Shown: positions 7,051 through 26,611 of the stretch, one piece after another
Numbering within the stretch: position 1 is the stretch's first letter
Layout: each line of letters begins with the position of its first letter
Translations under genes and position numbers: made by a program
From: an uncultured Bacteroidales bacterium
GTDB lineage: Bacteria > Bacteroidota > Bacteroidia > Bacteroidales > Paludibacteraceae
Length of the DNA: 32,816 nt
Assembly (NCBI GenBank): GCA_946619625.1
Contig: CAMOMF010000117.1
Span: forward strand, 1 to 32,816
Direction of reading: 5' to 3'
Notes under the pieces: generated by a model
The model's input: the letters and a program-made list of their open reading frames with translations, nothing else
Told to the model about the DNA's origin: nothing
The model's database searches: none

Positions 7051-7072
7051 TACAGAATCTTTTTTATGTAGG

Positions 7073-7195
7073 TTAATATTCGTCTTCATCCCATGAACCA
7101 TCAATCGATCTCATGGCTTCCGCACTGCTGGTGAGAATGTCCTGAAACTGAATCGGAACGATTTCCGATTTAGGTGTTTGATAAACTTTTTTCAT
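7073..7195 (-). CDS. Short ORF, 40 aa: MKKVYQTPKSEIVPIQFQDILTSSAEAMRSIDGSWDEDEY
   Basis: Translated by hand; not in the supplied ORF track. Sits 22 nt upstream of the fimbrillin-like start and shares a signature with the short ORF at 7743-7889. Confidence 0.65.
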   Translation of the reverse strand: MKKVYQTPKSEIVPIQFQDILTSSAEAMRSIDGSWDEDEY

Positions 7196-7950: not shown

Positions 7951-10161
7951 TTAGCGAACAACCGCGCCAGTAGCGTCGTAAACAACACCGTTCTTGCGGA
8001 TGAAGAGTTGCCCGTTTTGGATGAACTTAACAGCAGTTTCGTTGCCCTCAATGCCCTCGATGTTGGTGGCGTTTGCAATGATGCGGAGAACGGGAGCAGG
8101 ACTCGGGTTCTTAACCAAGCTGATGTACGCTTTGTATTGAGCCACGTCAGCGGTAGCTTCCTCTGCTAACAAGTGGAACTCGTTATCCATGAGAATAAAA
8201 TAGTCATTGTCTCCGTTAACAGCGAGATGAGCCGCCTCTGCCGCCAAATTGCCTACGAAGTTGTTGACAACAACCGGATCGTTTACTTTGCCGCCAACCA
8301 AGTCGAATTCGTAACTGCCATCAGCCGCTGCCTTCACCAAGTATGCCTTACCGGCACCAATTGCGCTTTCGCTCTGCAGTGAAACATATCCGCCAGCGAT
8401 GGAAGCGATGGAGTAAGCCTCGACACCTGTGGGCAGTTCCATAGTAGCATACGGCAGACAGAGGGTGCTCCAGTTGGCACTGAGAGTAGCGTTGTGATTA
8501 TTCGGCTTCACATACAATTTGCCATAATACCAACCATTGTTGAGTTCGGGATGATCTTCACCGGCAGGCTTGAAGTAGATGGTTTTAGTACCGGCGTGGT
8601 CAGCCTCGATAGCGTAATTTCCAGCAGGAGAAGCAGGATACCAAGAAGCGATAGCATTGTCCACGATAGAAACAACCTTGAACTCGTCACCAACAGTAAG
8701 CGTAAAGTCGATATACCATTCTGCATCATTCTCAGGATTTTGGGTAAGCTTACGCTCAGCTGTCAAGTCAGCAACTGTCCAACTCTCCTCACCGCCAAAG
8801 TTGCCTACGAGGTAGTAGCCGTCAGCGAGCGGAGCCGCAGGAGCCACATATGCAGACCAAGTACCTGCATCCCAAGCGGTGATAGTAAAGAGGTTGTTAG
8901 CACTTCCATCAATAAGTGTCAGGTTGCCTGTTTGGTTCCATTTACTTCCCCAATTTGGAGTAACTGCTGAAGCATCCAGGCGGACAAAAATCAAGTGAGA
9001 ATACCCTGCAGGAACGGTGCCGGTATAAATATTTGTTTCATTTTCTGCCAATGCTAAGAAGTCGGACCATTGTTCAGGTTTGCCCGGTTCATAGGCATAT
9101 ATAGCATATTTCGCGCCGTCTGCATTCCACATACCAGGAGCGAGGTAAACAGTAGTTGCGGTGCTGGGAACAGCCGGGAACCAACGCGGGTCACCGAGAT
9201 TGTCACCGTCGGTAGCAGCGCCAAGAGCAGGAGATCCTTCAGTAAGAGTAAAGTCACCATTTGCAGCGTCGGCGAAGAGAGGGTCTTGATCTGCAATAGG
9301 AGCTGTTAATGTTATATCATCTGTTCTGTGATTTGGTGTATTAAATACCAAGCAATTAGAAACAGAACCACCATAGAGTTGAGTAGCTCTTGCTGCATAG
9401 CGACCATCGGGGAGAGTCTCCGGATTTACAAAAATACAATTCGTAATTGTATTGTTGGTAGATTTACGAGAATCTATAACGCCATACGTATTATTACTTG
9501 GTTTCGTAATATTGTAGAAGGTACAATGATCAATCCTTGTTTCAATATCCGAAGTAACACTGTTACCAACATTTTCAACTTCAATGCAGCCATAGTCGGG
9601 TATTGCAAAATTAGCAAAAGTAGAATTCGTGACAATTAACTGGTCGCAAGTATTTGGAGCACTCGCTGCTTTATGGCAACGAATTGCATTATTATTGCCA
9701 TTGTGGAAATAGCAATTGTTAATTTTAATGGAATTAATATGTTTTCCAGACTCTACGCGAATGAAAATATTATTATTATTGCATAATTCACATCCTTCCA
9801 ACTCCAAACTATTTTCGGAATTATCATAAACTCTGAAAAAATAACTATAGTTACCTTGGGAAGTGCCATCAAACTTAACACCTATTATTTTAACATTAGC
9901 AGAATTTTGAATCTTAATATACGTATATACATTCACAACAGGATGAGCACCATCAGCGGCCTTTACTTCCAAACTTTTGTTAAAGTCGATGTAATTGCCA
10001 GACTCATTATAAGTACCATCAGCAAGAACTAAAACATCTCCTGCAGAAGCGGCTGAGATGGCAGCTTGAAGAGTAGCTGTTCCAGGACTTACACTTACCG
10101 TTGCAGCATTAGCTGCGAATGCTACCAGCATTGCAGCAATAAAAGTAAAGATTTTTTTCAT
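7951..10161 (-). CDS. Secreted beta-helix protein (DUF4957/DUF5123-like) with two carbohydrate-binding-like modules and a short C-terminal tail
   Basis: Signal peptide MKKIFTFIAAMLVAFAANA; SPGTATLQAAISAASAGDVLVLADGTY; repeated N-rich beta-helix; WNADGAKYAIYAYEPGKPEQWSDF...HLIFVRLDAS...WNQTGNLTL; tail VKFIQNGQLFIRKNGVVYDATGAVVR. Confidence 0.82.
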   Translation of the reverse strand: MKKIFTFIAAMLVAFAANAATVSVSPGTATLQAAISAASAGDVLVLADGTYNESGNYIDFNKSLEVKAADGAHPVVNVYTYIKIQNSANVKIIGVKFDGTSQGNYSYFFRVYDNSENSLELEGCELCNNNNIFIRVESGKHINSIKINNCYFHNGNNNAIRCHKAASAPNTCDQLIVTNSTFANFAIPDYGCIEVENVGNSVTSDIETRIDHCTFYNITKPSNNTYGVIDSRKSTNNTITNCIFVNPETLPDGRYAARATQLYGGSVSNCLVFNTPNHRTDDITLTAPIADQDPLFADAANGDFTLTEGSPALGAATDGDNLGDPRWFPAVPSTATTVYLAPGMWNADGAKYAIYAYEPGKPEQWSDFLALAENETNIYTGTVPAGYSHLIFVRLDASAVTPNWGSKWNQTGNLTLIDGSANNLFTITAWDAGTWSAYVAPAAPLADGYYLVGNFGGEESWTVADLTAERKLTQNPENDAEWYIDFTLTVGDEFKVVSIVDNAIASWYPASPAGNYAIEADHAGTKTIYFKPAGEDHPELNNGWYYGKLYVKPNNHNATLSANWSTLCLPYATMELPTGVEAYSIASIAGGYVSLQSESAIGAGKAYLVKAAADGSYEFDLVGGKVNDPVVVNNFVGNLAAEAAHLAVNGDNDYFILMDNEFHLLAEEATADVAQYKAYISLVKNPSPAPVLRIIANATNIEGIEGNETAVKFIQNGQLFIRKNGVVYDATGAVVR

Positions 10162-10567: not shown

Positions 10568-13500
10568 TTACTCTACAATGACACCGAGGGCGTTGTAGGT
10601 TCTGCCGTCCTTACGGATGAAGAGTTGCCCGTTGCGGATGAACTTCTCTCCCTCACGGACAGTGGTTTTGGTGGAGAGGTTCTGCAGTCCGGACGGCAGT
10701 GAGTGTGGGGTGTTACGCTTGATCTGCATGGTGTTGAGGAGCGTAGCATTGCCGTTGGAGTCAGCCGTGTAGGAGTTGAGTTCGATGCAGTCACTCTTGA
10801 CGGTGAACTTGGTGAAGGACGGTGCTCCGGGTTGCCCGAACATGCCGGTGAAGAGGTCGAAGTAGTTGGTGACCTTGTGCTTGCTGTACTCGTCCTCCAT
10901 CTTCTGTCGGGTGTAAGGATAATACCGTTTGCGTCCGCAGGTAGCACCGATGAAATAGAGCGTTCCCTGGTCGGTTATGAACGTACCTCCCTCCTTGCCT
11001 GTCATGTTGGTGTTGGTGTTGACGGGTACAGTCTGCACATCGGAGAAGGCATTGGCGACCACGGTTCGGGTGTCGGGGTCAACGGGACCAATGACTTCGT
11101 AGCAGTGGTCGTGTCCCTGAATGGCGAGGTCGATTTCACACTCCTTGAAGATAGGTAGCATGAATTGGCGGAAGAGCGGTGTCTCGGAGTCCACGGAGTG
11201 TCCGGATCCGGAGAAGATATTCTTGTGCGCCAGAGTGACACGGTACTTGGTGTTGGGATGGAGTGCTATCTGCTCGCGGAACCAGTTCGCGACATCGTTG
11301 GTGAGGTAAGTTGAGGCGAGAGAGGACTCATTGTCACTGCTACCCTGTGCACGCCACCAGTCCTGTAACGAATAGACGAGGAAGAGGACGTCTCCATAGA
11401 CGAAGCTGTAGGTAATACCGTGGAACTGCGGTTTGGTGGAGGCAGCGGAATAGAATCCCCAGTCGGTGTTGAAGTGGTAGTCGTAGTTGAGGTTCTCGCT
11501 GTCGTCGTGGTTGCCATCGGTAGGTACGATAGGCATCTGCATGATGACCGGCCGGATAGACTCTTCGAACCAGCGTTCCCATTCCCATTCGCTGTTCTGT
11601 GCCGTGCCAGTCTCGACGAAGTCACCGGGGAAGAGGCAGAATCGTGCATCGGGAGCCGTTGCCGCAGCGGCGGTAGCACACCAGCGTGCGTTGTTGACGT
11701 ACTCGGCATCCTGGATATGACTGTCGGTCATGTAGAGGAAGGAGAACTCGCCCTGGTCGGTATCCTGCGTCTTGAACTGCGCAATGGGGCTCCAGTGCCC
11801 CTCGTACCCAACGCGCCAACTGTAGGTAGTGCCGGGCGTGAGGTTCTCCGCCAGTGCTTTGTGGCTGATGTAGCGGAACTTGGTGCGTGTAGGCAAAGCC
11901 GCTGCTTTGGCGATGCCGGAAGTGGAGACAGCGTAGTTCAGTTCGGGTGTCTGTGTAGGTGTAGCAGCGACAGTGAGTACGCCGTTGTTGGAGGCGAAGT
12001 CGGCAGCCGTAGCATTTGCCATGGGCAGCAACTGAACACTACCCTCGGTAATGCCGTCGTTGGGGAACCAACAGAACGCCATACGCGTGGGGGGGGGACC
12101 ATTGATGTTCGCCACCATGTTGTAGGGTTCCTCTTTGTTTACGAGGTTACCGATCGCCACAATCATGTCGGCTATCTTGGCGTTCAAAGTGGAGAGGTCG
12201 CTCTCGGGATTGAGGCTGTCGATACGAGCCGCCTCTTTGGCTATGAGGAAAGGAATATAAGAGGGAACGGTGAAGTCCTCTGCCTTGAACAACGTGTCGG
12301 CAATCAAAACCTCGGTTGGGTATTTCTTGGGCGGGATAGGGGTGATGATGACGATAGCGGTGTCGGTGAAATTGCCCTCCTGTGTAAAGACGTGGGCGGT
12401 GGTCTGTCCCACACTGACGCCGGTGACGGCACCATTGTGGATAGTAGCCACGGCTTCGTTGTCAATAGACCACGTGACGCGTTTGTTGTTGGCGTTGGCG
12501 GGTAGGATGAGTACTGAGAGCGTGCCGGACTGTTCCTGCACCACCCAGATTGTATCCTGAATGATATCCACTCCTGTTACGGATACAATGGCAGCGTTGG
12601 GGTCGAACTCGTACGCGCCAATGTCGGAAGCCGTTCCCTTGGGTCGTGCCACTCCGTTGATGTCCGTAGCGGGTGCATGCGTTGCATCAGCAAGGTTGAG
12701 GAGTGCTACAGAGGCATCGGTGAGAGAGAAGTCGGCATTCCGCATAGCGGCTATTTCGCCTGCATTGGTAGGGATACCGACGAAGTTGGTCGGGTTGCGG
12801 AAGTTGGGTCCTGCCGGGTCGGTGTTATTGGAGCTGAGTGTGAGGCTGATATATGCCGCACTATTGCCGAATCCCTGATCTGCTACATTGTGGGAGGAGG
12901 CAGTATTGGAAATATAGTTGACGGGATCAGCAAATCCATCCTGCGCCTGATTGCCCCAGAAGACGGAGTTATATACTTCGCTATCGGCATGGATTCCTGC
13001 GTACTGCAGACCATAGTTATTGCAGACGGTGCAGTTGATAACTGTTCCACCGGGGTTATAAATACCGCCGGAGGCAGGCCATCCGGAGATGGTGGTGGCA
13101 TTGTTGTGGATGACGCAGTTGCGAATTGTACCCGAGTCGTTCCGGATAGTGCCATACTTGCCCTGGCAGCCACGGATGACGCAGTTCTCGATGAGTCCGC
13201 CTTTGTTGCGGATAGCACCGCCGGAACTGGTGGCAGAACATAGTTCGATGAGACAGTTGCGAATAATAGGCTGCACTCCTGATGAGCCCATAGATACGTT
13301 GATACCACCGCCATTGGAACCTGAGCAGTTGAGAATATGGCAGTTGGTGATTGCCATGTTTCCGCGAAGGAAGACAGCGCCGCCTTCCTGAGAGTGGTTG
13401 GCGTTCTGGAGTGTGAGTCCGTCGATGACAATCAGCTGGTCAGGATCAGCGTCGTACTTAACTATAATCCATTTGCCTTGGTCGGTGCCATCGATGATTG

Positions 13501-13780
13501 TTTCGTACATCTCGATGTCGCGTTCCCCCGTAGTGGCGTTGTATCCGCCGAGAATAGTCTGTCCGCTACTTACGGAAAAGGCTTGGTAGTACGTACCTTC
13601 GGCGATGAAGATGGTGTCACCCGCAGGTACACCCCACACAGCGGTCTGGATGGTGGCGAAGGCGTTAGCCCATGATTTGCCGTCCAGACTGTCATCGCCG
13701 TCAGGCTTGACGTACTTGTTGCTTGCTGACGCGCACAGCGTGGCTGTACAGAGCGTCAAGAGGAGTAGAAATCGCTTCAT
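10568..13780 (-). CDS. Secreted beta-helix + Ig-like (BIG2-type) + purple-acid-phosphatase-like metallophosphoesterase with C-terminal tail
   Basis: YVKPDGDDSLDGKSWANAFATIQTAV; VTGVDIIQDTIWVVQEQSGTLSVLILPANANNKRVTWSIDNEAVATI; MPE motifs TDSH, PGDFV, GNHD, AHKN, GHDHCYE; tail KFIRNGQLFIRKDGRTYNALGVIVE. Confidence 0.9.
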   Translation of the reverse strand: MKRFLLLLTLCTATLCASASNKYVKPDGDDSLDGKSWANAFATIQTAVWGVPAGDTIFIAEGTYYQAFSVSSGQTILGGYNATTGERDIEMYETIIDGTDQGKWIIVKYDADPDQLIVIDGLTLQNANHSQEGGAVFLRGNMAITNCHILNCSGSNGGGINVSMGSSGVQPIIRNCLIELCSATSSGGAIRNKGGLIENCVIRGCQGKYGTIRNDSGTIRNCVIHNNATTISGWPASGGIYNPGGTVINCTVCNNYGLQYAGIHADSEVYNSVFWGNQAQDGFADPVNYISNTASSHNVADQGFGNSAAYISLTLSSNNTDPAGPNFRNPTNFVGIPTNAGEIAAMRNADFSLTDASVALLNLADATHAPATDINGVARPKGTASDIGAYEFDPNAAIVSVTGVDIIQDTIWVVQEQSGTLSVLILPANANNKRVTWSIDNEAVATIHNGAVTGVSVGQTTAHVFTQEGNFTDTAIVIITPIPPKKYPTEVLIADTLFKAEDFTVPSYIPFLIAKEAARIDSLNPESDLSTLNAKIADMIVAIGNLVNKEEPYNMVANINGPPPTRMAFCWFPNDGITEGSVQLLPMANATAADFASNNGVLTVAATPTQTPELNYAVSTSGIAKAAALPTRTKFRYISHKALAENLTPGTTYSWRVGYEGHWSPIAQFKTQDTDQGEFSFLYMTDSHIQDAEYVNNARWCATAAAATAPDARFCLFPGDFVETGTAQNSEWEWERWFEESIRPVIMQMPIVPTDGNHDDSENLNYDYHFNTDWGFYSAASTKPQFHGITYSFVYGDVLFLVYSLQDWWRAQGSSDNESSLASTYLTNDVANWFREQIALHPNTKYRVTLAHKNIFSGSGHSVDSETPLFRQFMLPIFKECEIDLAIQGHDHCYEVIGPVDPDTRTVVANAFSDVQTVPVNTNTNMTGKEGGTFITDQGTLYFIGATCGRKRYYPYTRQKMEDEYSKHKVTNYFDLFTGMFGQPGAPSFTKFTVKSDCIELNSYTADSNGNATLLNTMQIKRNTPHSLPSGLQNLSTKTTVREGEKFIRNGQLFIRKDGRTYNALGVIVE

Positions 13781-13796
13781 ATAGACAATTTGTTAA

Positions 13797-15533
13797 TTAG
13801 TTGATGCCGGGTGCGGTGTGAGGACGAGTACGAACGACGCGCATGGTGTTGAAGAGTGAGACGTTGCCCTCGTCATCGTCGGCGGTGTAGGAGTTGAACT
13901 CAAGGCAGTCGTCCTTGACGGTGATTTTGGTGAACGAAGGTCGCTCGGGCTGTCCGAACATACCGGTGAAGAGGTCGAAATAGTTGGGTACGTCGTGCTT
14001 ACCGTTCTGGTAGTCGGACTCCATCCGCTCGCGACTATGTGGGTAGTATCGTTTTCTGCCGCAGGTTGCCCCAATGAAATACAGTGTACCGTCATCGGTA
14101 CAATAGGTACCTCCCTTGTATCCTGTGCGGTTCTTATTGTCATTGACGGGCACTTCTTCGCGGTCGAAAATCGCGGAGAGGATAGGGGTAAGGCTGTCGG
14201 GGTTGACTGGTCCGATGACCTCGTAAGTATGGTCATGCCCTTGTAGTGCGACGTCAATCTGGCATTCTTTCATGGTAGGCAACATACATGCCCGGAAGAG
14301 CGGTGGCTCCTCGTCGGTGGAGTGGTCGGAGCCGGAGAAGAGGTTGAAGTGTGCAAGGGAGAGTCGGTACTTGGTGTCGGGGTTCTCCGCCACCTTCATG
14401 CGGAACCACGGTCCGACGTGGTCGGTGAGGTAAGTGGAGGTTTTGTTCACGTAGTTGTAGTCTTCGCGCCAGAAGTCCTGCATGGAGAAGACGAGGAAGA
14501 GGGCGTCACCATAGACGAAATTATAGACTATACCTTCGAATTGCGGCTTGCGCGTGATGGTATAATTGAAGTCGTTGTCGGTGTTGAAGTGGTAGGTATA
14601 GTTGATATTGGGGCTGTCGTCGTGGTTTCCATCGGTGGGGACGACAGGCATCTGCTTGATGACGGGTTCGAGTGCCTCTTCGAACCATCGTTCCCATTCC
14701 CACTCGCTGTTGGCGACCGTACCATCCTCGACAAAGTCTCCGGGGAAGACGCAGAAGCGTGCCTCGGGAACGGTCTTGACTGCCGCGAGAGCACAACGTC
14801 GTGCATAGTGGATATACTCGGGGTTCATGATATGGCTGTCGCTCATGTAGATAAAAGAGTATTCGCCCTGATTGTTGTCCTCGGTACGGAAACGCGCGAT
14901 GGGACTCCAGTGCCCCTCGTATCCACAACGCCAACTATATTCGGTGCCGGGTGTGAGGTCAGTCGCCAACGCCTTGTGGCTGATGTATTTGTACTTGAGG
15001 TTTTTCGCCAAGCCAGAGAAAGCGACGATGTACTGACAGATGCCAGTGTAGCGTAATGCTTTGGTTTGGGTAGCCTTGGCCGCGACCGTCTTGACGTTGC
15101 CTGCAGCGAAGTCCGCCTCGGTAGCGTCCGCCTTAGCGATGAGTTGCACCTCCCCCTCGAAGATGCTGTCGTTGGTGAACCAACAGAATCCCATGGATGT
15201 CTTGGGGGCGCCGTTGATGGTAGCGACCATGCAGTAAGGCTCCTGCTTAGGAACCAGTTCCTTGATACGCTGCCTCATTGCCTCGAGGTTCTCCTCGGTA
15301 GGGTTGTTGGCACAGGCAAACTGCGCCAACTTGAACATCGTGTGGGATGGTACGGTATAGTCCGCTACGGTGTAGAGTGAGTCTGCGCGCTCCCACTCCG
15401 TGAGGGGTACATATACAGCGACGGTGTCGGAGTCATTGACCGGCGGCTCGATAGGCGGGACCGGCGGTTCGGGTTTGCATGCTGCCAAGGAGCCGCAAAC
15501 GAATATCAGTAACAGATGGTAGAAGTGCTTCAT
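13797..15533 (-). CDS. Purple-acid-phosphatase-like metallophosphoesterase lipoprotein
   Basis: Lipobox LAAC near the N-terminus; PGTEYSWRCGYEGHWSPIARFRT (FN3/PAP-N-like); SDSH, PGDFV, GNHD, AHFN, GHDHTYE. Confidence 0.9.
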   Translation of the reverse strand: MKHFYHLLLIFVCGSLAACKPEPPVPPIEPPVNDSDTVAVYVPLTEWERADSLYTVADYTVPSHTMFKLAQFACANNPTEENLEAMRQRIKELVPKQEPYCMVATINGAPKTSMGFCWFTNDSIFEGEVQLIAKADATEADFAAGNVKTVAAKATQTKALRYTGICQYIVAFSGLAKNLKYKYISHKALATDLTPGTEYSWRCGYEGHWSPIARFRTEDNNQGEYSFIYMSDSHIMNPEYIHYARRCALAAVKTVPEARFCVFPGDFVEDGTVANSEWEWERWFEEALEPVIKQMPVVPTDGNHDDSPNINYTYHFNTDNDFNYTITRKPQFEGIVYNFVYGDALFLVFSMQDFWREDYNYVNKTSTYLTDHVGPWFRMKVAENPDTKYRLSLAHFNLFSGSDHSTDEEPPLFRACMLPTMKECQIDVALQGHDHTYEVIGPVNPDSLTPILSAIFDREEVPVNDNKNRTGYKGGTYCTDDGTLYFIGATCGRKRYYPHSRERMESDYQNGKHDVPNYFDLFTGMFGQPERPSFTKITVKDDCLEFNSYTADDDEGNVSLFNTMRVVRTRPHTAPGIN

Positions 15534-15626
15534 ATTTGTTTTATTTTTATTGTGTTTCTATTCCGTTTCTCACGGCTTTCTTTATCGTGTTGTTGTCGTG
15601 TCGTTGTCGTGTCTTGCAGCAACTTG

Positions 15627-18152
15627 TCAGTGTACAACCACAATGGTATTAAACAACTCTGTTTGCCCGTCAGGTAGGACCTTGAAGGACTGGAGCAGTA
15701 AACTATCCCTGCGTACGGTGACGCGGGTATAGGAAGGTGCACCGGGCTGTCCGAACATGCCTGTGAAGAGGTCGAAGTAGTTGTCCACCTTGTGGATATG
15801 TTTGGACGCATCCATTTCCTCACGCGTTAGGGGTGTGTACCGTTTGGCTCCACAAGTGGCTCCGATGAAATAGAGTGTGCCATCCTTGACGTTGTACGTA
15901 CCTCCGCGTCTGCCGGTGATGTTGCGTAGCGAGTCAACGGGAACGATTTCCTGTCCTTTGACAGCGGAGAGGATAGGCTTGCGCGTGTCGGGGTTGACTG
16001 GTCCGATGACCTCGTAGGTGTGGTCATGCCCCTGTAGGATGAGGTCCATGTGACAGTCTTTCATTACGGGCAGTAGGGTTGCCCTGAGGAGAGGTGTCTC
16101 TTTGTCGCGCTGGTGGTCGGAGCCGGAGAAGAGGTTTTTGTGGACAAGCCCGACCCGCCATTTGGCATTGGGTGCCTCCGCCACTTGCCGCCTGAACCAC
16201 CCGGCGAGGTCGCGCTGGAGGTACTCGGACGTAAGTGCCTCGTAACTATAATCGCCGCGCCAGAAATCCTGCTCGGAAAAGGCGATGAGTTGAAGGTCAC
16301 CATAGGTGAAACTATAGTTTATTCCGGCGAATTGCGGTCGCACGCGGGTCTGTGCATTGAAAGATGTGTCGGCATTGAAATGGTAGGTATAGTTGAGTAG
16401 TGGTGAGTCGTCGTGGTTGCCGTCGGTGGGAACGATAGGCATGAGCATGAGGACAGGCTTGAGCGCCTCTTCGAACCAGCGTTCCCATTCCCATTCGCTG
16501 TTATTGTGCGTGCCAGTATCGACAAAATCTCCGGGAAAGACACAGAAACGTGCGTCTTTTTCGTTCCGTGCCACTGCTTCGGCACAGAGGCGGGCTGCGT
16601 CGATATACTCCCGGTTCTGGATATGGCTGTCGGTCATGTAGATAAAAGAGAACTCGCCCTGGTTGCTGTCCGCGGTACGGAAATGTGCGATGGGACTCCA
16701 GTGCCCTTCGAATCCCACGCGATAAGAATAGGCAGTGCCGGGAAGGAGGTTGGTTGCGAGTGCTTTGTGGCTGACGTATCGGAAAGCGGTGTTCTTATCC
16801 ATGCGCGCCTTCTTGAGTATTCCGGATGAGGAGATGGCATAGTGTAGCGGCGGTGTGGTAGTGGGGGTGGCGGGAACGACGATGAGGTCTTTCCCATGAA
16901 AATCCGCGTCAGTTGCTTCGGGTCTTGGCAGAATCTGCACTTCGCCCTGATAGACGTTGTCGTTGGTGAACCAACAGAAAGCCATGCGTGTACGCGGGTC
17001 GCCATTGATATTAGCCACCATGCAATAAGGCTCGTCTTTTGCAACCAAGGTAGCGGTGTCGCTCAGCAGAAAAGCGATGAAAGAGGGGACGGTGTAATCC
17101 ACCGAACGATAGACCTTGTCCCCCACCCTTTTCCGGCATGGGAAGGTGAGAATATCGGTAGGCAGGTCGGGGCGTGGTGAGGCAGGGGGCATGCAGGCTA
17201 TCCGGTGCGTAGGCGCCCCTATGCGGTAGTCCGCCGCCAGCATGATATCCTCTTCCGCCGAGGTGATGGGAATGCCAACAAAAGTGGCGGGGTCGCGGAA
17301 ATGGGGTCCGTCAGCCGCCTCGTTATCGGGTGACAGCCAAGGTTTCTCGAAGAAATGCTCCTCGAAGCCCTCGTCCGCCCGACTGGTGCCGGAAGTGCTT
17401 TCGTCGGAGACATAATTGGACGGGTCGACGAAGCCATACTCTGAGCGGTTTCCCCAGAAGGTGCAGTCATAGACCGAACTCTCGGAGTGAATGCCTCCGT
17501 ATCGGTCGCCGTAACAGTTGGCTATGGTGCAGTGGATGAGTGTGCCGTCGAAGTTTGCCACTCCGCCTGCGTCCGGCCAGTTGTGTCCGGTGGCAGAGCA
17601 GTTATGGATAAGACAGTCTTCGAGTGTGGCTCCGAGCGCAGAGGCTTCGGGCAGGTTGCCCTTGATGAGGACTCCGCCACACTGCTCACCGCTACAGCCA
17701 CGAACGACACATCGGCGCAACACCACTTTGCCCCTGAGCCATGCGGCACCGCCCCGCTGGTCGTGGCGTGCGTTTTGCAGGATAAAATCCTCGACCAGAG
17801 TAGGCAAGAGGCAATCGTCCTCGCAGGTAATGAGACGCTGGTGCAAATCGGTACCATCGAGTACGGTCTTGGCCGTGTGCGTACGGGTGCGGTTGTCAGG
17901 TTCGAACGCCATGCAACCTCCGAAGATTGTCACGCCGTCCTTTAGTGTTATCCCCTCGTGAAAAGTGCCTTCCTCGACGAACAGGGTGTCCCCCGCCCGA
18001 CAGTTGTCCAATCCCAGACGAATGGTAGCCTGCGCCGTCTGCCATGATTTGCCATCATCGCCGTCAAACCCATCGGTGCGCACGTACCATGTTCTTGCCG
18101 ACACAGGCAGAGCCAGCAGGCAGAACAAGAGTATGTGAAGACGAGGTTTCAT
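15627..18152 (-). CDS. Secreted beta-helix + purple-acid-phosphatase-like metallophosphoesterase
   Basis: Likely start MKPRLHILLFCLLALPVSA; WYVRTDGFDGDDGKSWQTAQATI; TDSH, PGDFV, GNHD, VHKN, GHDHTYE; paralogous to the two adjacent genes. Confidence 0.9.
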   Translation of the reverse strand: MKPRLHILLFCLLALPVSARTWYVRTDGFDGDDGKSWQTAQATIRLGLDNCRAGDTLFVEEGTFHEGITLKDGVTIFGGCMAFEPDNRTRTHTAKTVLDGTDLHQRLITCEDDCLLPTLVEDFILQNARHDQRGGAAWLRGKVVLRRCVVRGCSGEQCGGVLIKGNLPEASALGATLEDCLIHNCSATGHNWPDAGGVANFDGTLIHCTIANCYGDRYGGIHSESSVYDCTFWGNRSEYGFVDPSNYVSDESTSGTSRADEGFEEHFFEKPWLSPDNEAADGPHFRDPATFVGIPITSAEEDIMLAADYRIGAPTHRIACMPPASPRPDLPTDILTFPCRKRVGDKVYRSVDYTVPSFIAFLLSDTATLVAKDEPYCMVANINGDPRTRMAFCWFTNDNVYQGEVQILPRPEATDADFHGKDLIVVPATPTTTPPLHYAISSSGILKKARMDKNTAFRYVSHKALATNLLPGTAYSYRVGFEGHWSPIAHFRTADSNQGEFSFIYMTDSHIQNREYIDAARLCAEAVARNEKDARFCVFPGDFVDTGTHNNSEWEWERWFEEALKPVLMLMPIVPTDGNHDDSPLLNYTYHFNADTSFNAQTRVRPQFAGINYSFTYGDLQLIAFSEQDFWRGDYSYEALTSEYLQRDLAGWFRRQVAEAPNAKWRVGLVHKNLFSGSDHQRDKETPLLRATLLPVMKDCHMDLILQGHDHTYEVIGPVNPDTRKPILSAVKGQEIVPVDSLRNITGRRGGTYNVKDGTLYFIGATCGAKRYTPLTREEMDASKHIHKVDNYFDLFTGMFGQPGAPSYTRVTVRRDSLLLQSFKVLPDGQTELFNTIVVVH

Positions 18153-18239: not shown

Positions 18240-19187
18240 TTAACTCCAGCCGAACTGCTCGCGTCCTATGCGCTCGACCTCTTCGCGGGAAGTGAAGGCA
18301 GTAGTACCTCCGGCGGCGGTGGTGTTCACCGCACCGGTCATGTTCCCATATTGTTGGCAGAGGTCCAAGGGGTCTCCGGCAGCCAAGCGTGTGATGAATC
18401 CAGAGTTAAAAGAGTCCCCTGCGCCAATACAATCCACGACATGCTTGTTGAGCAGCGCAGGTTGCATGCGGTCGGGTTGTCCCTTGCGGATGAGGAGCGA
18501 TCCCCGGCTGCCACACTTGATAACAGCAGCATTGGCGTATGGGCGTATTTTCTCCACCGCCTCTTCGAGCGTTTGAGCATGTGTGAGGCACTTGAGTTCG
18601 GTTTCATTGGGCATGAAGACGGTGAGCATAGGCAGTACGGCTTGGTAGTCCAGGTCCCATTTCTCCATAGGGTCCCATTGGGTGTCGAGGGAAGTGGTGA
18701 CGCCGTTTGCTTTGCAGAGTTCCAAAATCATCATGAGGTCGCGCTTGACTCCGCTCTGCATGAAGATAGAGGATATATGAATATGTTTCGCCTCGGTGAA
18801 GACCTTGGGGTTGATATCTCCGAGAGACATGTAGTCCATGGCGCCCTGGTAGGTGAGGTTGGCACGGTCTTCGTCGTAACTCATGCAGATAGTGGCACCC
18901 GTGGCGTATTGGTCCTGCCGAATGAGGAAACGTGTGTCCACACCTTTCTTTTGGAGACTGGTCTCGACCAAATCGCCGAAACTATCATTGCCAATCATGC
19001 CGCAGAATGCCACTTTGGCTCCGAGCGCAGCAGCATTGGCGGCAAAGATAGCGGTGGAACTGCCCAAGGTGAGGGTCATCCGGTGTGCAAATTTCTCTTT
19101 GCCTATCTCGGGCTGACCATCTATCTGGTTGAGAATAAGGTCCACATTCAGTTCGCCTAAAGCGATAATATCAAATTTATTTAACAT
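18240..19187 (-). CDS. PfkB-family carbohydrate kinase
   Basis: Likely start MLNKFDIIALGELNVDLI; PfkB motifs GSSTAIFAANAAALGAKVAFCGMIGNDSFG and VDCIGAGDSFNSGF. Confidence 0.93.
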   Translation of the reverse strand: MLNKFDIIALGELNVDLILNQIDGQPEIGKEKFAHRMTLTLGSSTAIFAANAAALGAKVAFCGMIGNDSFGDLVETSLQKKGVDTRFLIRQDQYATGATICMSYDEDRANLTYQGAMDYMSLGDINPKVFTEAKHIHISSIFMQSGVKRDLMMILELCKANGVTTSLDTQWDPMEKWDLDYQAVLPMLTVFMPNETELKCLTHAQTLEEAVEKIRPYANAAVIKCGSRGSLLIRKGQPDRMQPALLNKHVVDCIGAGDSFNSGFITRLAAGDPLDLCQQYGNMTGAVNTTAAGGTTAFTSREEVERIGREQFGWS

Positions 19188-19222: not shown

Positions 19223-20632
19223 TTAGAGGAAACTGCGGAAGAAATTCCGTATCATACCATTCCAACCTGTGGGATAGGCATGTTGCATCTCGGGGTAGAA
19301 ATGGTACTCTTTCTTGCCGGCAGGCGTGAGGAGATTGTTGTAGGGTGCGATATTGGTGTGCGGCGGGCAAGTACCGTCCTGCAAGCCGCTGGTAGCCAAT
19401 ACGCCACAGGAGATACGCGTAGCCAGGTTTTTGGTATCGAAATAAGAGAGGAAGGCATACATCTGTTCGTCTGTCATCGTGCCTTTGTTCGCCTTGGCAG
19501 TCTCAGCAGGCCACGACACAATTCTAAAGTAATCAGGGTAGTCGCCGAGGAACGCCACATTGGGTGCAATGGCGGTGAAGGGATAGTCGCTAAGTGCAGC
19601 GGCAGCGTAACTGAGTGCTCCTCCCTGGCTGGATCCCTCGCCAAACAGGCGGGTCATGTCGCTTGACTGACGTGTAGCCATGAATCGTACCGCCTGCACG
19701 CAATCCATGAAAGCCCCACGATAGTAATAACTATCCTTATCGCCGAAATGATAGGCAAACCAATCGCCGTAGATGTTGACACAATCCTCAGTAACGCCCG
19801 GGTTCTGCGTGGAGGCGGGCCGATTGTTGAGATATTGTCCACGGTGGGATAGGTAGAACTCGGCAAACTCGGCAGAACTGCCGCCATCGGGGCACTCGCA
19901 TTTGCTTTTACTGCCCTGCGTGTCGTAACCGTAGAAGTGCATGATGACAGGATGTTGCTGCCCGTCTTGAGGCTCGCAGTAATATCCGCGGATAGTGACC
20001 GGTTCGCCCGTGAGACCGTCCGGAACAGAATGCATTTCGACCAAATATACTTTTCTTGCGGCAGTGCTCTTAGTGGTGATCTCTGTCAATTGTGCGTGCA
20101 TGTCCAATGTATCCAACTGCGCTTTGGCTGTTGCCCAGAAGTCGTCGAAGTCGAGCTGTTTATCAGGTGCGGAGACAATATCGAACGGGTCAATACCGAA
20201 CATGAACTGCGCGCGTGCCAGTTTGCCATTGACCACGCAGGTAGCCCGGTAAAAGCCGGGGCTGAGGTTGTCCGAAGTAGTCATGACGAAGTCCTGCGTA
20301 GTAGCACCTGCAACAGTAACGCTATCGGCAATTGTGCCCACAGTCTGCCACGTGTCAGTGACGAGTTTGATTTTTGCCTCGACCTTGACCGCCGCTTTGT
20401 TGGGATTTTCAATACGAATAGTGATTGCCGGTTTACCGCTGTATATCCAGTTCTCCGTAACAGGCACAGAGAGTTTGAGCAAGGACAAATCGGGCTGCTC
20501 TACAATCGTTGAATCCGAAGTTTGCTCTTCGTCAGGCCCGGAATTTGGGTCATTCCGGGGCGTGCACTTGCAACAACACGCCCCCAGAACGACCGCTAAC
20601 ACAACACACAAACTAAAAACATTCTTTTTCAT
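19223..20632 (-). CDS. AXE1-family acetyl esterase / cephalosporin-C-deacetylase-like lipoprotein
   Basis: LDFDDFWATAKAQLD; GEGSSQGGALSYAAAALS nucleophile elbow; GLQDGTCPPHTNIAPYN; EMQHAYP; N-terminal VVLGACCCKC lipobox. Confidence 0.87.
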   Translation of the reverse strand: MKKNVFSLCVVLAVVLGACCCKCTPRNDPNSGPDEEQTSDSTIVEQPDLSLLKLSVPVTENWIYSGKPAITIRIENPNKAAVKVEAKIKLVTDTWQTVGTIADSVTVAGATTQDFVMTTSDNLSPGFYRATCVVNGKLARAQFMFGIDPFDIVSAPDKQLDFDDFWATAKAQLDTLDMHAQLTEITTKSTAARKVYLVEMHSVPDGLTGEPVTIRGYYCEPQDGQQHPVIMHFYGYDTQGSKSKCECPDGGSSAEFAEFYLSHRGQYLNNRPASTQNPGVTEDCVNIYGDWFAYHFGDKDSYYYRGAFMDCVQAVRFMATRQSSDMTRLFGEGSSQGGALSYAAAALSDYPFTAIAPNVAFLGDYPDYFRIVSWPAETAKANKGTMTDEQMYAFLSYFDTKNLATRISCGVLATSGLQDGTCPPHTNIAPYNNLLTPAGKKEYHFYPEMQHAYPTGWNGMIRNFFRSFL

Positions 20633-20688: not shown

Positions 20689-21933
20689 TTATTTCAGGTA
20701 GTCGTTTAGGTTTACTATATTGAAGGCATTATAATACTTGTCCATATTATGCTCGATACGCATGAGTACCACTTCTTCCGCCTGAATGCCAAGCCGCTGA
20801 AGGTTGTCGTACAGCATTTGTCGAGCCACCAGTGCCTCGGGTTTCTGCCAAATATACCGGCAGCCGGTCTTAACAAGCCAGAGTTGGCGCTCGGGTGTGC
20901 AGTCCTTGAGGTCCTTGCCCACCTCGTCGCCATGCAGCCATTTTTTCCAGCGTCCGGATTCGTACACGCATTGCCAGAGAACTTGGGTCATGCGGCTGAG
21001 TTGTGCCACTTTGCCCTCGGCGTGGAGTTTTTTCTCCTCTTCTTCGAGTTCAGCCAGTGCATCATACTCGTTCATAGTGAACTCGGGTCCCACATTGGCG
21101 GCGCCCATACCCGCCTTGGGATAGTCCTCGGGGTTGTCCACGTCGTCGGAGTAGTGTCCCTTGATATAACTGCCGTAGGGGCGTACCTTGGCGGTAAGTT
21201 TTCGTGCTACGTCTGCATCGAAGAAAGTGGTGTGGAGGTCTGTTCCCACTTTGCCCACGATGAAACAAGGCCAAACATCGTCCAGTCCCACCTCGTGGAG
21301 TCCGGCTTTGAGTCCCTCGAGGAAGGTGTCGAACGTTTTCTCGTCAGCGAGTCCGCCATGTACCTCTTCGGTGCCCACTTCGTAGGAGATGGGAGCGATA
21401 CCATGTGCTTTGCGGAAGTTCTCGGCGTGGAGAATCAGTTCCACCGTACGTTTTACGACCACGTGAATATCGATGATTTGTCCTTTAGGAAGGAAAATAT
21501 CCACAGTGGGGTCCACGTGAATGAGGTCGTAGCCGGCAAGTATAGCCGCCTCGTAACTCTCCTTGACCCCTTGCATTGCACGCTCGGTATCCCAACGTTC
21601 GATAGACTGTTTGTCCTTGAGCCATGGTCCACCATGGTCAATAGCCACCACATAGGGTCCTGTGTAGTGCACGGCAGCGGCTTCACGGGCAAGAATCTTG
21701 GTAAATTCAGCCTGTGTCATGCCGGTGTATCCGCCGTCGCAGTCCACTTGGTTGAGTGTAGTGGCGAAATAGATAGGCGAGTTGTTGCGCTTGGCAGCGC
21801 GGAATGACGCCTTAATTACCGACAAGGAGTTCGGGCATGCAGCAAACAAGGTGCGGGGTACTCCGGTTTTTTGCTTCAGTTCCTCCATTACGCGGAGGAT
21901 ATTTTCTGTCTTTTTCATATTGTTTTTAGACAT
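20689..21933 (-). CDS. GatZ/KbaZ-family protein (annotated as tagatose-bisphosphate aldolase non-catalytic subunit; possibly a hexulose-6-phosphate 4-epimerase)
   Basis: IYFATTLNQVDCDGGYTGMTQAEF; AIDHGGPWLKD; YEVGTEEVHGGL; GPEFTMNEYDALAELE. Confidence 0.85.
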   Translation of the reverse strand: MSKNNMKKTENILRVMEELKQKTGVPRTLFAACPNSLSVIKASFRAAKRNNSPIYFATTLNQVDCDGGYTGMTQAEFTKILAREAAAVHYTGPYVVAIDHGGPWLKDKQSIERWDTERAMQGVKESYEAAILAGYDLIHVDPTVDIFLPKGQIIDIHVVVKRTVELILHAENFRKAHGIAPISYEVGTEEVHGGLADEKTFDTFLEGLKAGLHEVGLDDVWPCFIVGKVGTDLHTTFFDADVARKLTAKVRPYGSYIKGHYSDDVDNPEDYPKAGMGAANVGPEFTMNEYDALAELEEEEKKLHAEGKVAQLSRMTQVLWQCVYESGRWKKWLHGDEVGKDLKDCTPERQLWLVKTGCRYIWQKPEALVARQMLYDNLQRLGIQAEEVVLMRIEHNMDKYYNAFNIVNLNDYLK

Positions 21934-21976: not shown

Positions 21977-23092
21977 TTATTCATAGATAGTGACACCTTC
22001 CACAACGCGGTGGATATTGCCGCTGACGGATGGAGCGTCGGGGTTGAGATTGTGCGCCAGAGAAGCGTAGTAGCCCAGTAGTTGACCGACCAACACATAA
22101 GGTACGATACCGTAGAAATCGGTCTCCGCCTTGCTGTACGGCATTCGTACGGTGAGGTCGGCTTTGACCTCGGGTAGTTTGGGGTCTCCGGCGATGACGA
22201 TAATCTGTGCCACCGGCTTGTTGTTGCTATCCACTTGACGGACGAGGTCACGCTCGTAGCGAAGAACAGACTCTTCGTCGGTCATAAGATAGACAACGAT
22301 AGACTTGTTGTTTACCACCGCTTTGGGTCCGTGCCGGAAGCCAAGGAAACTATCAAACTTGCAGACTACGGCACCATCGGTAAGTTCCTGCAACTTGAGG
22401 TGGCACTCCTCGGCAATGCCCTTCAGAGCACCCGATCCCAAGAAAACTCCGCGCTCGAAAGGCCGCTCTGCAATTGTGCGTAATGCCTGTTCGTGAGTAG
22501 CGATGATGTACTCGGCATTCTTGACCGTTTTCTCAATCTTATCGGCATCGGCATCGAGTGTGTCCATATGCCCCAGCATGAGACATGTGAGCAACATGGT
22601 GGAGAAACTGCTGGTCATGGCGAGCGACTTGTCGTCGGTTTCTTCGGGCAATAAGATCAAGAGGATATTGTCCTTGCCGCTATTGGCAGCGAGTTTGCCG
22701 TCTTTGTTGCAGGTAATGTATATATGAGCAACATTCTTGCACAACTTGTTGGCGATATTCACCGCCCCCACACTTTCGGGACTGTTTCCAGAGCGGGCAA
22801 AACTGATAAGAAGCAGTGGCCTGTCCGCGTCCAAGAGGTACTCAGCATGCGTGATGAGATCGGTAGTGGGTATGGCACGAACATTGGTCCAGATACCTCG
22901 CATGACAGGTTCGATGGCATCGCCAATAAAGGCAGAAGTACCGGCACCGGTGAGCACAACATCTGTTTCGGGAGTAAGATATTTGTGCATGAAAGCACTA
23001 ATCTCATTCCGGGCTTTGAGCAACTGTTCGTGTTCTTTCCGCCACATAGCCGGCTGCTGGTGGATTTCATTAAAAGTAAATGAAGTTGTCAT
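21977..23092 (-). CDS. SIS-domain sugar isomerase/deaminase, AgaS-like
   Basis: TDVVLTGAGTSAFIGDAIEPV; LLISFARSGNSPESVGAV; FLGSGALKGIAEECHLKLQELTDGAVVCKFDSFLGFRHGPKAVV. Confidence 0.9.
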   Translation of the reverse strand: MTTSFTFNEIHQQPAMWRKEHEQLLKARNEISAFMHKYLTPETDVVLTGAGTSAFIGDAIEPVMRGIWTNVRAIPTTDLITHAEYLLDADRPLLLISFARSGNSPESVGAVNIANKLCKNVAHIYITCNKDGKLAANSGKDNILLILLPEETDDKSLAMTSSFSTMLLTCLMLGHMDTLDADADKIEKTVKNAEYIIATHEQALRTIAERPFERGVFLGSGALKGIAEECHLKLQELTDGAVVCKFDSFLGFRHGPKAVVNNKSIVVYLMTDEESVLRYERDLVRQVDSNNKPVAQIIVIAGDPKLPEVKADLTVRMPYSKAETDFYGIVPYVLVGQLLGYYASLAHNLNPDAPSVSGNIHRVVEGVTIYE

Positions 23093-23126: not shown

Positions 23127-23158
23127 GCAACGTGAAAAGATAAACCATTTCACGCTGC
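23127..23158 (-). promoter_or_regulatory. Inverted-repeat operator candidate upstream of the SIS gene
   Basis: GCAACGTGAAA-N10-TTTCACGCTGC, arms match 10/11, abutting a TAATTTTG -7 box at 23158-23165. Confidence 0.5.
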
Positions 23159-23314
23159 AAAATTACTACAATTTCCCGAACTTTCGAAACTATTTCTTAT
23201 GCTTTACAACATATTTTCGGAACACTCTATTATATTTCACTGATTTTAAGTTGTTTCAGTTGATTATTTGTTATTTCGTAACCTTTCGAAATGAAACCCT
23301 AAAAGAGCAGTCTA

Positions 23315-23884
23315 TTATTCCAAAACTATTTCGCCAAAGAATTCGGGTCGATGGAAATCGGGGTTGGGCAAGTGGATAGGCTGCCAACTGACGAAATGGG
23401 GTTTGGCTGTTTTGTCGGCACACTTGTAGAAATTCACCATCAGCTTTTGTGGGAAGCAGGGAGGCTGTTCGCGGAAGATGAGCCGTAGGGGGATTTGGAG
23501 TTCGACGTCCCAAATGAAGATACCGTCACGCTCTTCTATGAGTGCACGCGGGAAAGTGCAGCGGCGCTTGATAAGGGACATTTCTTCGGGAGGCAGTGGT
23601 CGGACCTCGTCTATGCGACTGAGGCGGCGTGAGGCAACCATCGCCCCAATGCAGTTGGTTTCGAAATTCATGTAATGCTTGTCGCCGGGCACTTGACAGA
23701 AGAACTCTACGCAGGAGTCTTCCCACACCGGCCCCTGGTCGCAGGTAGTAAGTGCGCGTAACTGCTCGCCCTGAACATGGAAGTGGAGGAAGAGCGATTC
23801 ATGGTCGTTGGTTAGTTCTACCGTCGTTTCGGGACAATAGGGGAAACGATCCGGCCAGTTGACTTGGTTGATGATGTATTTCAT
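23315..23884 (-). CDS. Carbohydrate-binding family 9-like protein, no signal peptide
   Basis: ESLFLHFHVQGEQL...GPVWEDSCVEFFCQVPGDKHYMNFETNCIGAMVASRR; WDVELQIPLRLIF; FHRPEFFGEIVLE. Confidence 0.8.
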   Translation of the reverse strand: MKYIINQVNWPDRFPYCPETTVELTNDHESLFLHFHVQGEQLRALTTCDQGPVWEDSCVEFFCQVPGDKHYMNFETNCIGAMVASRRLSRIDEVRPLPPEEMSLIKRRCTFPRALIEERDGIFIWDVELQIPLRLIFREQPPCFPQKLMVNFYKCADKTAKPHFVSWQPIHLPNPDFHRPEFFGEIVLE

Positions 23885-23900: not shown

Positions 23901-24986
23901 TTAGGACTTCACTTGGGAGATGGCACGCTTCATTTCAGGCTCCATTTTCTCCTGTTCTTCCACCAGACGCAACTGAGCACGTGTGCGGACAAGATTATGT
24001 TCGGGGTACTGAATCTTATAATAAGTGTCGCCATTGATCCAGTCGGTAAAGAAGCGTACCGTCTGCATGTAACTGAGCAACCGGCATCCGTATGGCAGCA
24101 ATTCTTTCTCGATGTCGGTGAGGAAGGTTGCTTGTCGAAGGTAGCCGCGTGTGTATGCCTCAAAGACCGCCATGTCCACATGGACGTTGTCGGGGTTGGG
24201 GTCGTCCTCGAGACCTGTATTGGCTGCAATCCGCATGAAGTCGCCGAAGTCGCTCAAGACAAATCCCGGCATGACGGTATCGAGGTCCACGATACAGATA
24301 GGACGGTCGTTTTGGTCAAAGAGCACGTTGTTGACCTTGGTGTCGCAGTGGTTGATATGTTTGGGCAGTTTGCCTTCGCGGAAGAGCCTTTCGGCAAGGC
24401 ACATGTCTTCGCGCCGGCTGTTGATAGCCCGGATAATATCGTTGCAGGCGGCTTTTCGTCCTTTGGGGTCTGCAGCGAGAGCCTCGTCCAGTTGCTGCAA
24501 GCGGAACTCGATATTATGGAAATTGGGGATTGACTCGCAGAGTTCGTTGAAGGGTAAGTCTGCCAACTGGCACTGGAAGCGTCCGAAGGCTTCGCCTGTC
24601 AGTTCGGCAGCCTCGGGTGTTACTTTTTCATGCGAAGTGGCGTTCTCGATGAGCACATAGACTCTCCAATAGTCGCCGGCAGGAGTCTGATAGTACAGTT
24701 TGCCGTCGGTGGTAGGAACGAGGGTGAGTACCTTACGGTCAATGTCCGTCTCGCCAGCCGCCTCCAGTTTGTGGCGGATGTGGTTTGTAACTTTCCAAAT
24801 GTTCTGCTGCAACCCCTCGACATTACGGAAAATGTGGTGGTTAATACGTTGCAGGAAATAAGAGCGCTCACCCGCATGCTTGGCACGTACAATGAACGAG
24901 TCGTTGATAATACCTATTTTCAGCGGCTGGGGTTCCGCCACCTCGTTGGGAATGGCGAAACATTTTATTATTTCTTCATTTAACAT
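23901..24986 (-). CDS. Aminoglycoside-phosphotransferase-fold kinase, NahK (N-acetylhexosamine 1-kinase)-like
   Basis: YFLQRINHHIFRNVEGLQQNIWKVTNHIR; KHINHCDTKVNNVLFDQNDRPICIVDLDTVMPGFVLSDFGDFMRIAAN catalytic/Mg motifs. Confidence 0.87.
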   Translation of the reverse strand: MLNEEIIKCFAIPNEVAEPQPLKIGIINDSFIVRAKHAGERSYFLQRINHHIFRNVEGLQQNIWKVTNHIRHKLEAAGETDIDRKVLTLVPTTDGKLYYQTPAGDYWRVYVLIENATSHEKVTPEAAELTGEAFGRFQCQLADLPFNELCESIPNFHNIEFRLQQLDEALAADPKGRKAACNDIIRAINSRREDMCLAERLFREGKLPKHINHCDTKVNNVLFDQNDRPICIVDLDTVMPGFVLSDFGDFMRIAANTGLEDDPNPDNVHVDMAVFEAYTRGYLRQATFLTDIEKELLPYGCRLLSYMQTVRFFTDWINGDTYYKIQYPEHNLVRTRAQLRLVEEQEKMEPEMKRAISQVKS

Positions 24987-25010: not shown

Positions 25011-25080
25011 TCATTTATCAATTATCCACGGCTCTGCCGATCGTACGAGCCTTACGAGTAAAGAATTGTCAATTGTCAAT
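25011..25080. repeat. Dispersed intergenic repeat, copy 1
   Basis: TCATTTATCAATTATCCACGGCTCTGCCGATCGTACGAG...TAAAGAATTGTCAATTGTCAA; matches 26608-26690. Confidence 0.8.
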
Positions 25081-26611
25081 TAAGGCATTGCCCCAGGACG
25101 TTGTATTTCCTGCCATCGGGGAGCAAGATAGAGACTGCGCCGTTTTCCAGCACCTTGCGTACCTTGGAGGAAGCGGAAGGTGTGCTCTTGAGTGCTGTTT
25201 CCACGGAAGGCAGTTCTCCGGGGTTGAGCGGTGCGGAGGCGTTGACCACGAGAGTGGCTCCCAAGTCGTTGAGGCCGGTCTCTGCATCCCATACTCCTTG
25301 ATTGGCAAGGCGGACGGCATAGCGGGGGTCGTTCATTATCTGTTCAGAAATATCCGGCAGGTAGAGGTAGAGGTGGTAAGTCCCTTCGGGAACAGAGGCG
25401 GGGATGTCCAGTTGTTCGTTGATGGCACTGACAAAGCCGTTCGGCAGCCATCGCCTCGGGTCGGCAGTGAGGGGGAGGCTGTAAGAAGTGTTGCCGTTCT
25501 TGAGGGTGAGGAAGACATGCCGCTCGTTGTAGATAGGCGCATATCCGTCGTTGCGCAGGCGGATAGTGACATTGGCTTTTCCTCCCGGAGCCGCCGAGTC
25601 GGAGAGTTGAGCGTCTATGAGGTTGTAGCGATAGCCCATATGTACGTTGAGTGTGTCGAAGAGTCCGCTGTTACGCCATCGGCTGGTGACGGGAGTGGCA
25701 TAAGAGGAGCCGCAGAAAGACCAGTGATACGTTGCCATCTCAGAAGGTGCCAGGGTGTAACGGCTCTCCGCCAGCGCATTATCATCGTCGATATTGGTTT
25801 CGCCTCCATTGGGAGTATAGAGTGTTTCGGTAGCAATAAACTGCCTGACAGCGGGGTCGTCGTCCAGGTCGTCGCTGGCATACGTACCCATGTTGCCCCA
25901 GTTGTGAAGGAAAGCGTCGTTGTGATACCCCATACGTGCGCGGGTAGTGCCGGTAAACGCAGAATCGGCGGGAAGCGGCTCTTCGCTGCCGAAATAGTCG
26001 AACTTGGTGGTGGGGTAGCGAAAGAGAACAAATCTGTCAGCAGGCACGCGCAACATGAGTGCATCCACTACCCTGCGGCGGTTGGGGTTGAGGTGCTGTG
26101 TCTCGTTGCCATAGTTGGTGGTGTAGTACCACTCGCCCCAAACTCCGACGAAGCCTGCTTCGACCACGTAAATTACGTCCTTGTTGCTTTCAAGGTGGGG
26201 AGCCAACTGCTGCAAATGGCGCTCGACCCAATCGGGCGTGGCATCCACCTTGTCACTCTCGGACTCGGTGTAAGCAAAGCGTAGTACGCACTTGAGTCCG
26301 TAATTACGCAGTTCCTGCATGTCCTCGTCGAACCCTGCCAATACCTGATCGGGCAGGTCCTGCGCCTTGAAGTAGTTGAAGTTGTAGAGCACAACCGCGA
26401 GGGTCATGTTGTAGCGGACGCCCCAAGTGGAAGAGAGATTGCCCTTGACCACGTTGGGTTTGTTGACGGATACCTTTCGGCTCATTTCCTCGGTAAAACC
26501 GCGCTCGGGGTTACGGAAGACCGTAGTATTGTCGGGAACATACGTTATCACTGCTGCCTGAACGGCAAGCAAGGAGAGAAGTGACAGAAATAGGCAAACA
26601 ATCTTTTTCAT
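25076..26611 (-). CDS. Secreted DUF4874/DUF4832 protein (TIM-barrel glycosidase-like) with C-terminal tail
   Basis: VFRNPERGFTEEM; VVLYNFNYFKAQDLPDQVLAGFDEDMQELRNYGLKCVLRFAYT; VVEAGFVGVWGEWYYTTNYG; RARMGYHNDAFL; tail VLENGAVSILLPDGRKYNVLGQCLN. Confidence 0.87.
   Translation of the reverse strand: MKKIVCLFLSLLSLLAVQAAVITYVPDNTTVFRNPERGFTEEMSRKVSVNKPNVVKGNLSSTWGVRYNMTLAVVLYNFNYFKAQDLPDQVLAGFDEDMQELRNYGLKCVLRFAYTESESDKVDATPDWVERHLQQLAPHLESNKDVIYVVEAGFVGVWGEWYYTTNYGNETQHLNPNRRRVVDALMLRVPADRFVLFRYPTTKFDYFGSEEPLPADSAFTGTTRARMGYHNDAFLHNWGNMGTYASDDLDDDPAVRQFIATETLYTPNGGETNIDDDNALAESRYTLAPSEMATYHWSFCGSSYATPVTSRWRNSGLFDTLNVHMGYRYNLIDAQLSDSAAPGGKANVTIRLRNDGYAPIYNERHVFLTLKNGNTSYSLPLTADPRRWLPNGFVSAINEQLDIPASVPEGTYHLYLYLPDISEQIMNDPRYAVRLANQGVWDAETGLNDLGATLVVNASAPLNPGELPSVETALKSTPSASSKVRKVLENGAVSILLPDGRKYNVLGQCLN

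Follow-up and report, generated by a model that had tools for sequence, protein, structure and literature searches.

The window analysed here, a stretch of 32,816 nucleotides from an uncultured rumen Bacteroidales bacterium (Paludibacteraceae; contig CAMOMF010000117.1), holds three intact open reading frames on the minus strand between positions 10568 and 18152. They encode predicted exported metallophosphoesterases, here MPE1, MPE2 and MPE3 (Table 1). The start of MPE3 was taken as the ATG at 18152, while the mechanical ORF extends to a TTG at 18197. All three proteins match PF16656 and PF00149 above the gathering score in Pfam and their catalytic domains share 60-64% identity, bearing out the original prediction of three adjacent paralogs. 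No further close copies were found in the window's draft genome (69% complete). Pfam additionally detected Big_2 in MPE1 and, weakly, a beta-helix in MPE3. The three differing architectures described in that prediction agree with structure models, a check it had proposed, and the layout is uniform within each orthologous clade; a Foldseek search with the full-length MPE1 model (pTM 0.60) added only Big_2 and weak beta-helix matches. The near-identical linkers it reported are real as similar stretches (MVANINGDPRTRMAFCWF is an exact stretch of MPE3, with MVANINGPPPTRMAFCWF and MVATINGAPKTSMGFCWF as its equivalents in MPE1 and MPE2), but this is where the PAP_N (Fn3-like) domain begins, and the label "linker" was dropped.

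Table 1. Features of the window
Feature	Coordinates	Strand	Remarks
DUF5123 beta-helix protein	7951..10161	-	same sorting tail as MPE1; often downstream of MPE1 in relatives
MPE1	10568..13780	-	signal peptide, beta-helix (choice-of-anchor Q), Big_2 Ig-like, PAP_N + metallophosphoesterase, C-terminal sorting tail
C-terminal tail of MPE1	10571..10690	-	~40 aa, EKFIRNGQLFIRKDGRTYNALGVIVE; probable T9SS-type sorting signal
Metallophos catalytic domain of MPE1 (aa 681-894)	11099..11740	-	Pfam
MPE2	13797..15533	-	lipoprotein, PAP_N + metallophosphoesterase, no tail
Metallophos catalytic domain of MPE2 (aa 228-437)	14223..14852	-	Pfam
Lipoprotein signal peptide of MPE2	15477..15533	-	ends at lipobox Cys19 (GSLAAC-KPEP); sequence and orthologs
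MPE3	15627..18152	-	signal peptide, beta-helix, PAP_N + metallophosphoesterase; no Big_2, tail or lipobox
Metallophos catalytic domain of MPE3 (aa 503-713)	16014..16646	-	Pfam
PfkB-family sugar kinase	18240..19187	-	next gene upstream of the MPEs; start placed according to homologs
AXE1-family acetyl esterase	19223..20632	-	probable lipoprotein; co-occurs with MPEs
GatZ/KbaZ-like tagatose-bisphosphate aldolase subunit	20689..21933	-	
AgaS-family sugar isomerase/deaminase	21977..23092	-	
Bacteroidales -7 box	23158..23165	-	TAATTTTG; candidate promoter of agaS-gatZ-AXE1-pfkB-MPE3-MPE2-MPE1
CBM9_2 protein	23315..23884	-	Pfam
APH-family kinase	23901..24986	-	related to N-acetylhexosamine 1-kinase
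DUF4874/DUF4832 putative glycoside hydrolase	25076..26611	-	with sorting tail

The amino-sugar operon and its conservation

As predicted, the triplet lies directly downstream of amino-sugar genes: pfkB, AXE1, gatZ and agaS form a block on the same strand, with gaps of 16-93 bp. The -7 box is located 66 bp before agaS, and no clear -33 box partnering it was seen. Among 66 loci fetched by MPE2 similarity, whose species are related so that the counts are non-independent trials, all seven genes were consecutive in 27 (rumen Bacteroidales MAGs) and the MPE3-MPE2-MPE1 triplet was present in 35, while the gene after pfkB was an MPE in 47/47 loci where it was visible. The seven-gene order is more than general synteny because most flanking window genes are not conserved across these loci. 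This synteny with variable flanks also lends support to the predicted tie between exported MPEs with differing anchors and the amino-sugar operon.

Equivalog scores of the sugar genes were low, with AgaS at 361 bits (cut-off 529), GatZ at 84 bits (cut-off 569) and PfkB below every equivalog cut-off. A KbaY-type catalytic aldolase partner adjoins the locus in three genomes (G111, G031 and G075; e.g. L122:8989-9807). No such partner was found next to GatZ in MPE-bearing genomes, where only a housekeeping-like homolog of ~45% identity occurs elsewhere in the genome.

Elsewhere on the minus strand of the window, near-identical Bacteroidales-type -33/-7 promoter matches (26697-26728 and 27672-27703) are located upstream of the DUF4832 gene and of a gene for a small secreted protein. 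A 585-aa secreted protein without a significant Pfam family is encoded near the cluster end (5347-7104), and a 1574-aa ORF (28051-32775) has an Omp85 C-terminal domain in Pfam, preceded by a long N-terminal region resembling TamB/AsmA on visual inspection.

Fold, metal site and enzyme class

The motifs of the PF00149 superfamily (D-x-H, GD, GNH(D/E), H, GHxH) occur in all three MPEs, and the complete metal-site motifs anticipated from the sequence (DSH, GDFV, GNHDD, H, GHDHxYE) are present as described. In MPE2 numbering, D232, D266, N303, H304, H395, H433 and H435 were invariant in 47/47 sequences, and H234 was kept in 43, with Q in four outgroups (DxH to DxQ). It is thus highly improbable that the MPEs are inactive, carbohydrate-binding relics, as the catalytic residues are invariant across the three clades and the outgroups with the sole exception of this DxH/DxQ swap; we infer that MPE1-3 are catalytically active phosphoesterases.

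The structure model of MPE2 is confident (pLDDT 90.4) and was matched by Foldseek to purple acid phytase and phosphatase structures (E 1e-22 to 1e-17, ~15% identity). A profile search with MPE2 led to the same families, and phmmer of MPE2 against the PDB gave no meaningful match. PF16656 above its cut-off and the best Foldseek matches together indicate the two-domain fold of purple acid phosphatases (PAPs) with an N-terminal PAP domain. The defining feature of PAPs is, however, a tyrosine ligand (PMC4223295), and this ligand to Fe(III) at GDxxY is absent in 47/47 sequences, with E in 29 and D in 18. True PAP membership was rejected on this ground, as was membership in PhoD, and MPE1-3 are placed as purple-acid-phosphatase-like by predicted fold and outside the PAP class by the tyrosine criterion. 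The label "PAP-like" given to them originally consequently stands for the fold (Foldseek, PF16656) but not for the metal site.

The best structural and profile matches are plant high-molecular-weight PAPs and purple acid phytase (PDB 6gja, 3zk4, 4dhl), which likewise combine an Fn3-like N-domain with a metallophosphoesterase. Unlike these, the MPEs possess E/D for the GDxxY tyrosine and a DxH ligand, share only ~15% identity with them, are fused to beta-helix, Ig and tail or to a lipobox, and are sited in a bacterial sugar operon. PhoD (PDB 2yeq) is an extracytoplasmic PAP-related phosphoesterase, as proposed for the MPEs, but it is a weaker structural match (E 1e-14) and has the tyrosine that they lack. 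Its metal site consists of a tyrosinate-ligated Fe3+ and two Ca2+, and wall teichoic acid has been suggested as its substrate (PMC4223295).

Clade-specific layouts and the C-terminal tail

A phylogeny of the MPE domains, proposed earlier as a check, was computed from 167 domains; MPE1, MPE2 and MPE3 each formed their own clade in rumen Paludibacteraceae-type MAGs, and the joint branch of MPE1 and MPE2 had low support (0.26). Outgroup MPEs were 35-38% identical and had unrelated gene surroundings. The MPE1 layout is probably ancestral because deeper members of the tree (L008, L079, L007) share its tail and its extended N-terminal part. In two sequences that group with MPE2 the N-terminal part is longer (L033 with 566 aa, L075 with 204 aa), as would be expected if MPE2 lost its beta-helix and Ig-like domain at a later stage.

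Layouts were nearly constant in the relatives of MPE1 (tail in 50/50, long N-terminal part in 49/50) and in those relatives of MPE3 with a complete start (neither tail nor lipobox in 36/36). The relatives of MPE2 comprised 25 sequences with a lipobox and no tail, like the window copy, 19 with a tail and no lipobox, and one that was truncated, in a sequence set where two pairs are duplicates (L004/L051, L005/L066). No MPE2 ortholog had both, and parsimony required three changes to explain the pattern. Since lipobox and tail never coincide, the previously unrecognised ~40 aa tail is probably a surface-sorting signal, and the MPE2 orthologs offer a natural test of this role.

The tail is common to four window proteins (10571-10690, 7954-8073, 26898-27017 and 25079-25198, all minus), none of which matched an NCBIfam sorting domain of type A, B or C up to E 10. 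A profile of the tail found 50 copies in G000, 82 in G134, 50 in G126 and 64 in G021, all of the same genus, and no copies in G006 and G023. Canonical type A tails showed the opposite distribution, with 7-17 per genome in the window's genus versus 54-70 in G006, G023 and G257. The tail differs from the T9SS type A sorting domain (TIGR04183/PF18962) in being only ~40 aa long and in giving no match to TIGR04183 or any other NCBIfam model; both are C-terminal, and MPE homologs of other genera carry type A at that very end. Together with these tail counts and the T9SS translocon SprA (TIGR04189), found in 9/9 genomes checked (G000 and eight relatives), this makes a T9SS-type sorting role likely. 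If the tail is indeed a sorting signal, 50-82 proteins per genome in this genus could be assigned a location that existing models fail to predict.

The linked glycan locus and candidate substrates

In four near-complete genomes of the same genus (G126, G134, G087 and G138), which are related and not independent, the operon adjoins a SusC/SusD locus or lies within about 20 kb of it, so that by this linkage the arrangement qualifies as a polysaccharide utilization locus (PUL). This linkage was seen only in relatives; in the window's own genome, the locus genes are located on contigs C114 and C87, apart from the MPEs. The locus of the relatives also holds GH36-like, GH31 and DUF4832 proteins, an amidohydrolase and an EamA transporter, and a DeoR regulator was present in the SusC/SusD-locus stretches read. 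The best PDB matches of the GH36-like protein include an "A type blood alpha-D-galactosamine galactosaminidase" (181 bits), and the best match of the GH31 protein is a GH31 alpha-galactosidase (698 bits). With glycosidase specificities assigned by homology, GH36-like, GH31 and AgaS point to a glycan with alpha-galactosamine or alpha-galactose. The GalN(Ac)-containing glycan already proposed as a candidate substrate has thereby become a much better one, given that relatives join the operon to a SusCD locus with a putative GH36-like alpha-galactosaminidase.

Among 13 genomes of the genus, GatZ and strong GH36-like matches coincided (6/6 genomes with, 0/7 without), and close MPEs were present in five of these six but in none of the other seven (Fisher p 0.005, uncorrected for relatedness). 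AXE1 was found in the five MPE genomes and was absent from three versions of the locus that lack MPEs. The latter (G111, G031, G075) keep the sugar genes, and the MPEs and AXE1 are therefore best read as an optional decoration-stripping module; phosphate would then not be universal to the substrate. Moreover, full-length MPE1 orthologs of ~54% identity occur outside such a locus, among unrelated genes, in two genomes of another family (G257 and G501). This shows that the MPE family is not intrinsically tied to galactosamine and is either older than the galactosamine locus or unconnected with it; a broader phosphatase role is conceivable.

We lean towards the explanation that the triplet consists of exported enzymes removing phosphate from an alpha-galactosamine-containing glycan within a PUL, i.e. 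triplicated extracytoplasmic calcineurin-fold phosphoesterases that may have been recruited into its degradation. Substrate, compartments and pathway direction are inferred here from homology and gene context. MPE1, with its beta-helix, Ig-like domain and C-terminal tail, would probably be exported by the T9SS and held at the cell surface, where MPE2, a putative surface lipoprotein that is tail-bearing in other species, might act as well, and MPE3, with only a signal peptide, would most likely be active in the periplasm. Removal of phosphate (mono- or diester) might allow the GH36-like alpha-galactosaminidase, GH31 and DUF4832 hydrolases to proceed, with AXE1 stripping acyl esters from the same glycan, and released galactosamine would enter an AgaS/PfkB/GatZ-like tagatose pathway. 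Descriptions of glycan-utilization loci usually centre on glycosidases, lyases, sulfatases and esterases. A phosphoesterase module conserved in such loci would indicate that phosphorylated galactosamine glycans serve as nutrients in the rumen, and it could be used to trace them.

General phosphorus-scavenging phosphatases, sited in a sugar operon by chance, would account for the solitary orthologs of other genera outside sugar loci, and scavenging is a common role among their PAP, PhoD and phytase relatives (PMC4223295). Nevertheless, this appears unlikely given the seven-gene order that is kept while flanks vary, the co-occurrence of MPEs with GatZ/GH36 and AXE1, the joint retention of three specialised copies, and the absence of Pst/Pho from the window genes that were identified. 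Within the preferred phosphate-stripping explanation, the nature of the glycan can be narrowed to some extent. No gene was found in support of the teichoic-acid-like substrate suggested originally, and the predicted glycosidases are more in keeping with an alpha-GalN(Ac) polymer resembling Pel or galactosaminogalactan; the literature on galactosaminogalactan yielded no matching locus, and it is kept solely as a Pel-like alternative. A phospho-mannan was dismissed, with a GH92 neighbour beside one outgroup MPE only (L100). Host-derived (salivary) mucin with alpha-GalNAc, the MPEs then acting on another ester, seems a distinctly improbable substrate: ruminants secrete much saliva, but mucin is not generally known to carry phosphate, and no mucinase, sialidase or sulfatase was detected among the cluster genes searched against Pfam. 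What mucin would explain is the presence of GH36-like and GH109 families, which act on blood-group A and Tn structures (PMC12703440, PMC11992087).

A specific and tentative form of the preferred explanation takes the substrate to be an alpha-GalN(Ac) biofilm polymer that resembles Pel and comes from rumen Gram-positives, from which the MPEs would remove phosphate esters or accompanying polyphosphate. In streptococci and clostridia, Gram-positive pel operons include a cotH kinase, a polyphosphate polymerase, DUF4956 and DUF4832 (PMC7112168), and SIR_1591, a DUF4832 TIM-barrel protein encoded in such an operon of a streptococcus, has hydrolase activity and breaks up Pel-dependent aggregates (PMC12345266), which makes a phosphate-associated Pel-like polymer an attractive candidate target. 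The locus itself combines DUF4832 with a GH36-like putative alpha-galactosaminidase, and the window protein at 25076-26611 resembles SIR_1591 in its TIM barrel and DUF4832, a likeness in described architecture; SIR_1591, however, sits in the biosynthetic locus of the producer and the window protein in a catabolic one. On the other hand, phosphorylation of Pel is unproven, DUF4874 is widespread (40/150 family genomes) and hence unspecific, and MPEs are missing from some versions of the locus. Speculatively, rumen Bacteroidota would use this locus to feed on a phosphate- and ester-decorated Pel-like alpha-galactosamine polymer of their neighbours with three compartment-assigned phosphoesterases, exported by a previously unclassified short T9SS tail that can give way to lipidation and, in this genus, has taken the place of most type A tails.

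Among described systems, the Bacteroides thetaiotaomicron PUL BT4240-50 for mucin O-glycoprotein/GalNAc resembles the MPE locus in its SusCD-type organization and alpha-GalNAc-directed enzymes and contains an APH-family GalNAc kinase like that at 23901-24986 of the window (PMC11992087); it differs in that AgaS, aldolase and phosphatase are unmentioned in that report. In another genus (G006), an MPE1-like gene is accompanied by SusCD, DUF4832, GH31 and GH109, without GatZ. Downstream of this gene, we observed a fusion of DUF5123 beta-helix, PAP_N, metallophosphoesterase and CBM11 (L103:12008-15622). A PF00245 alkaline phosphatase, a second phosphatase family in the cluster, is located near an MPE in G087 (L104:14106-15278).
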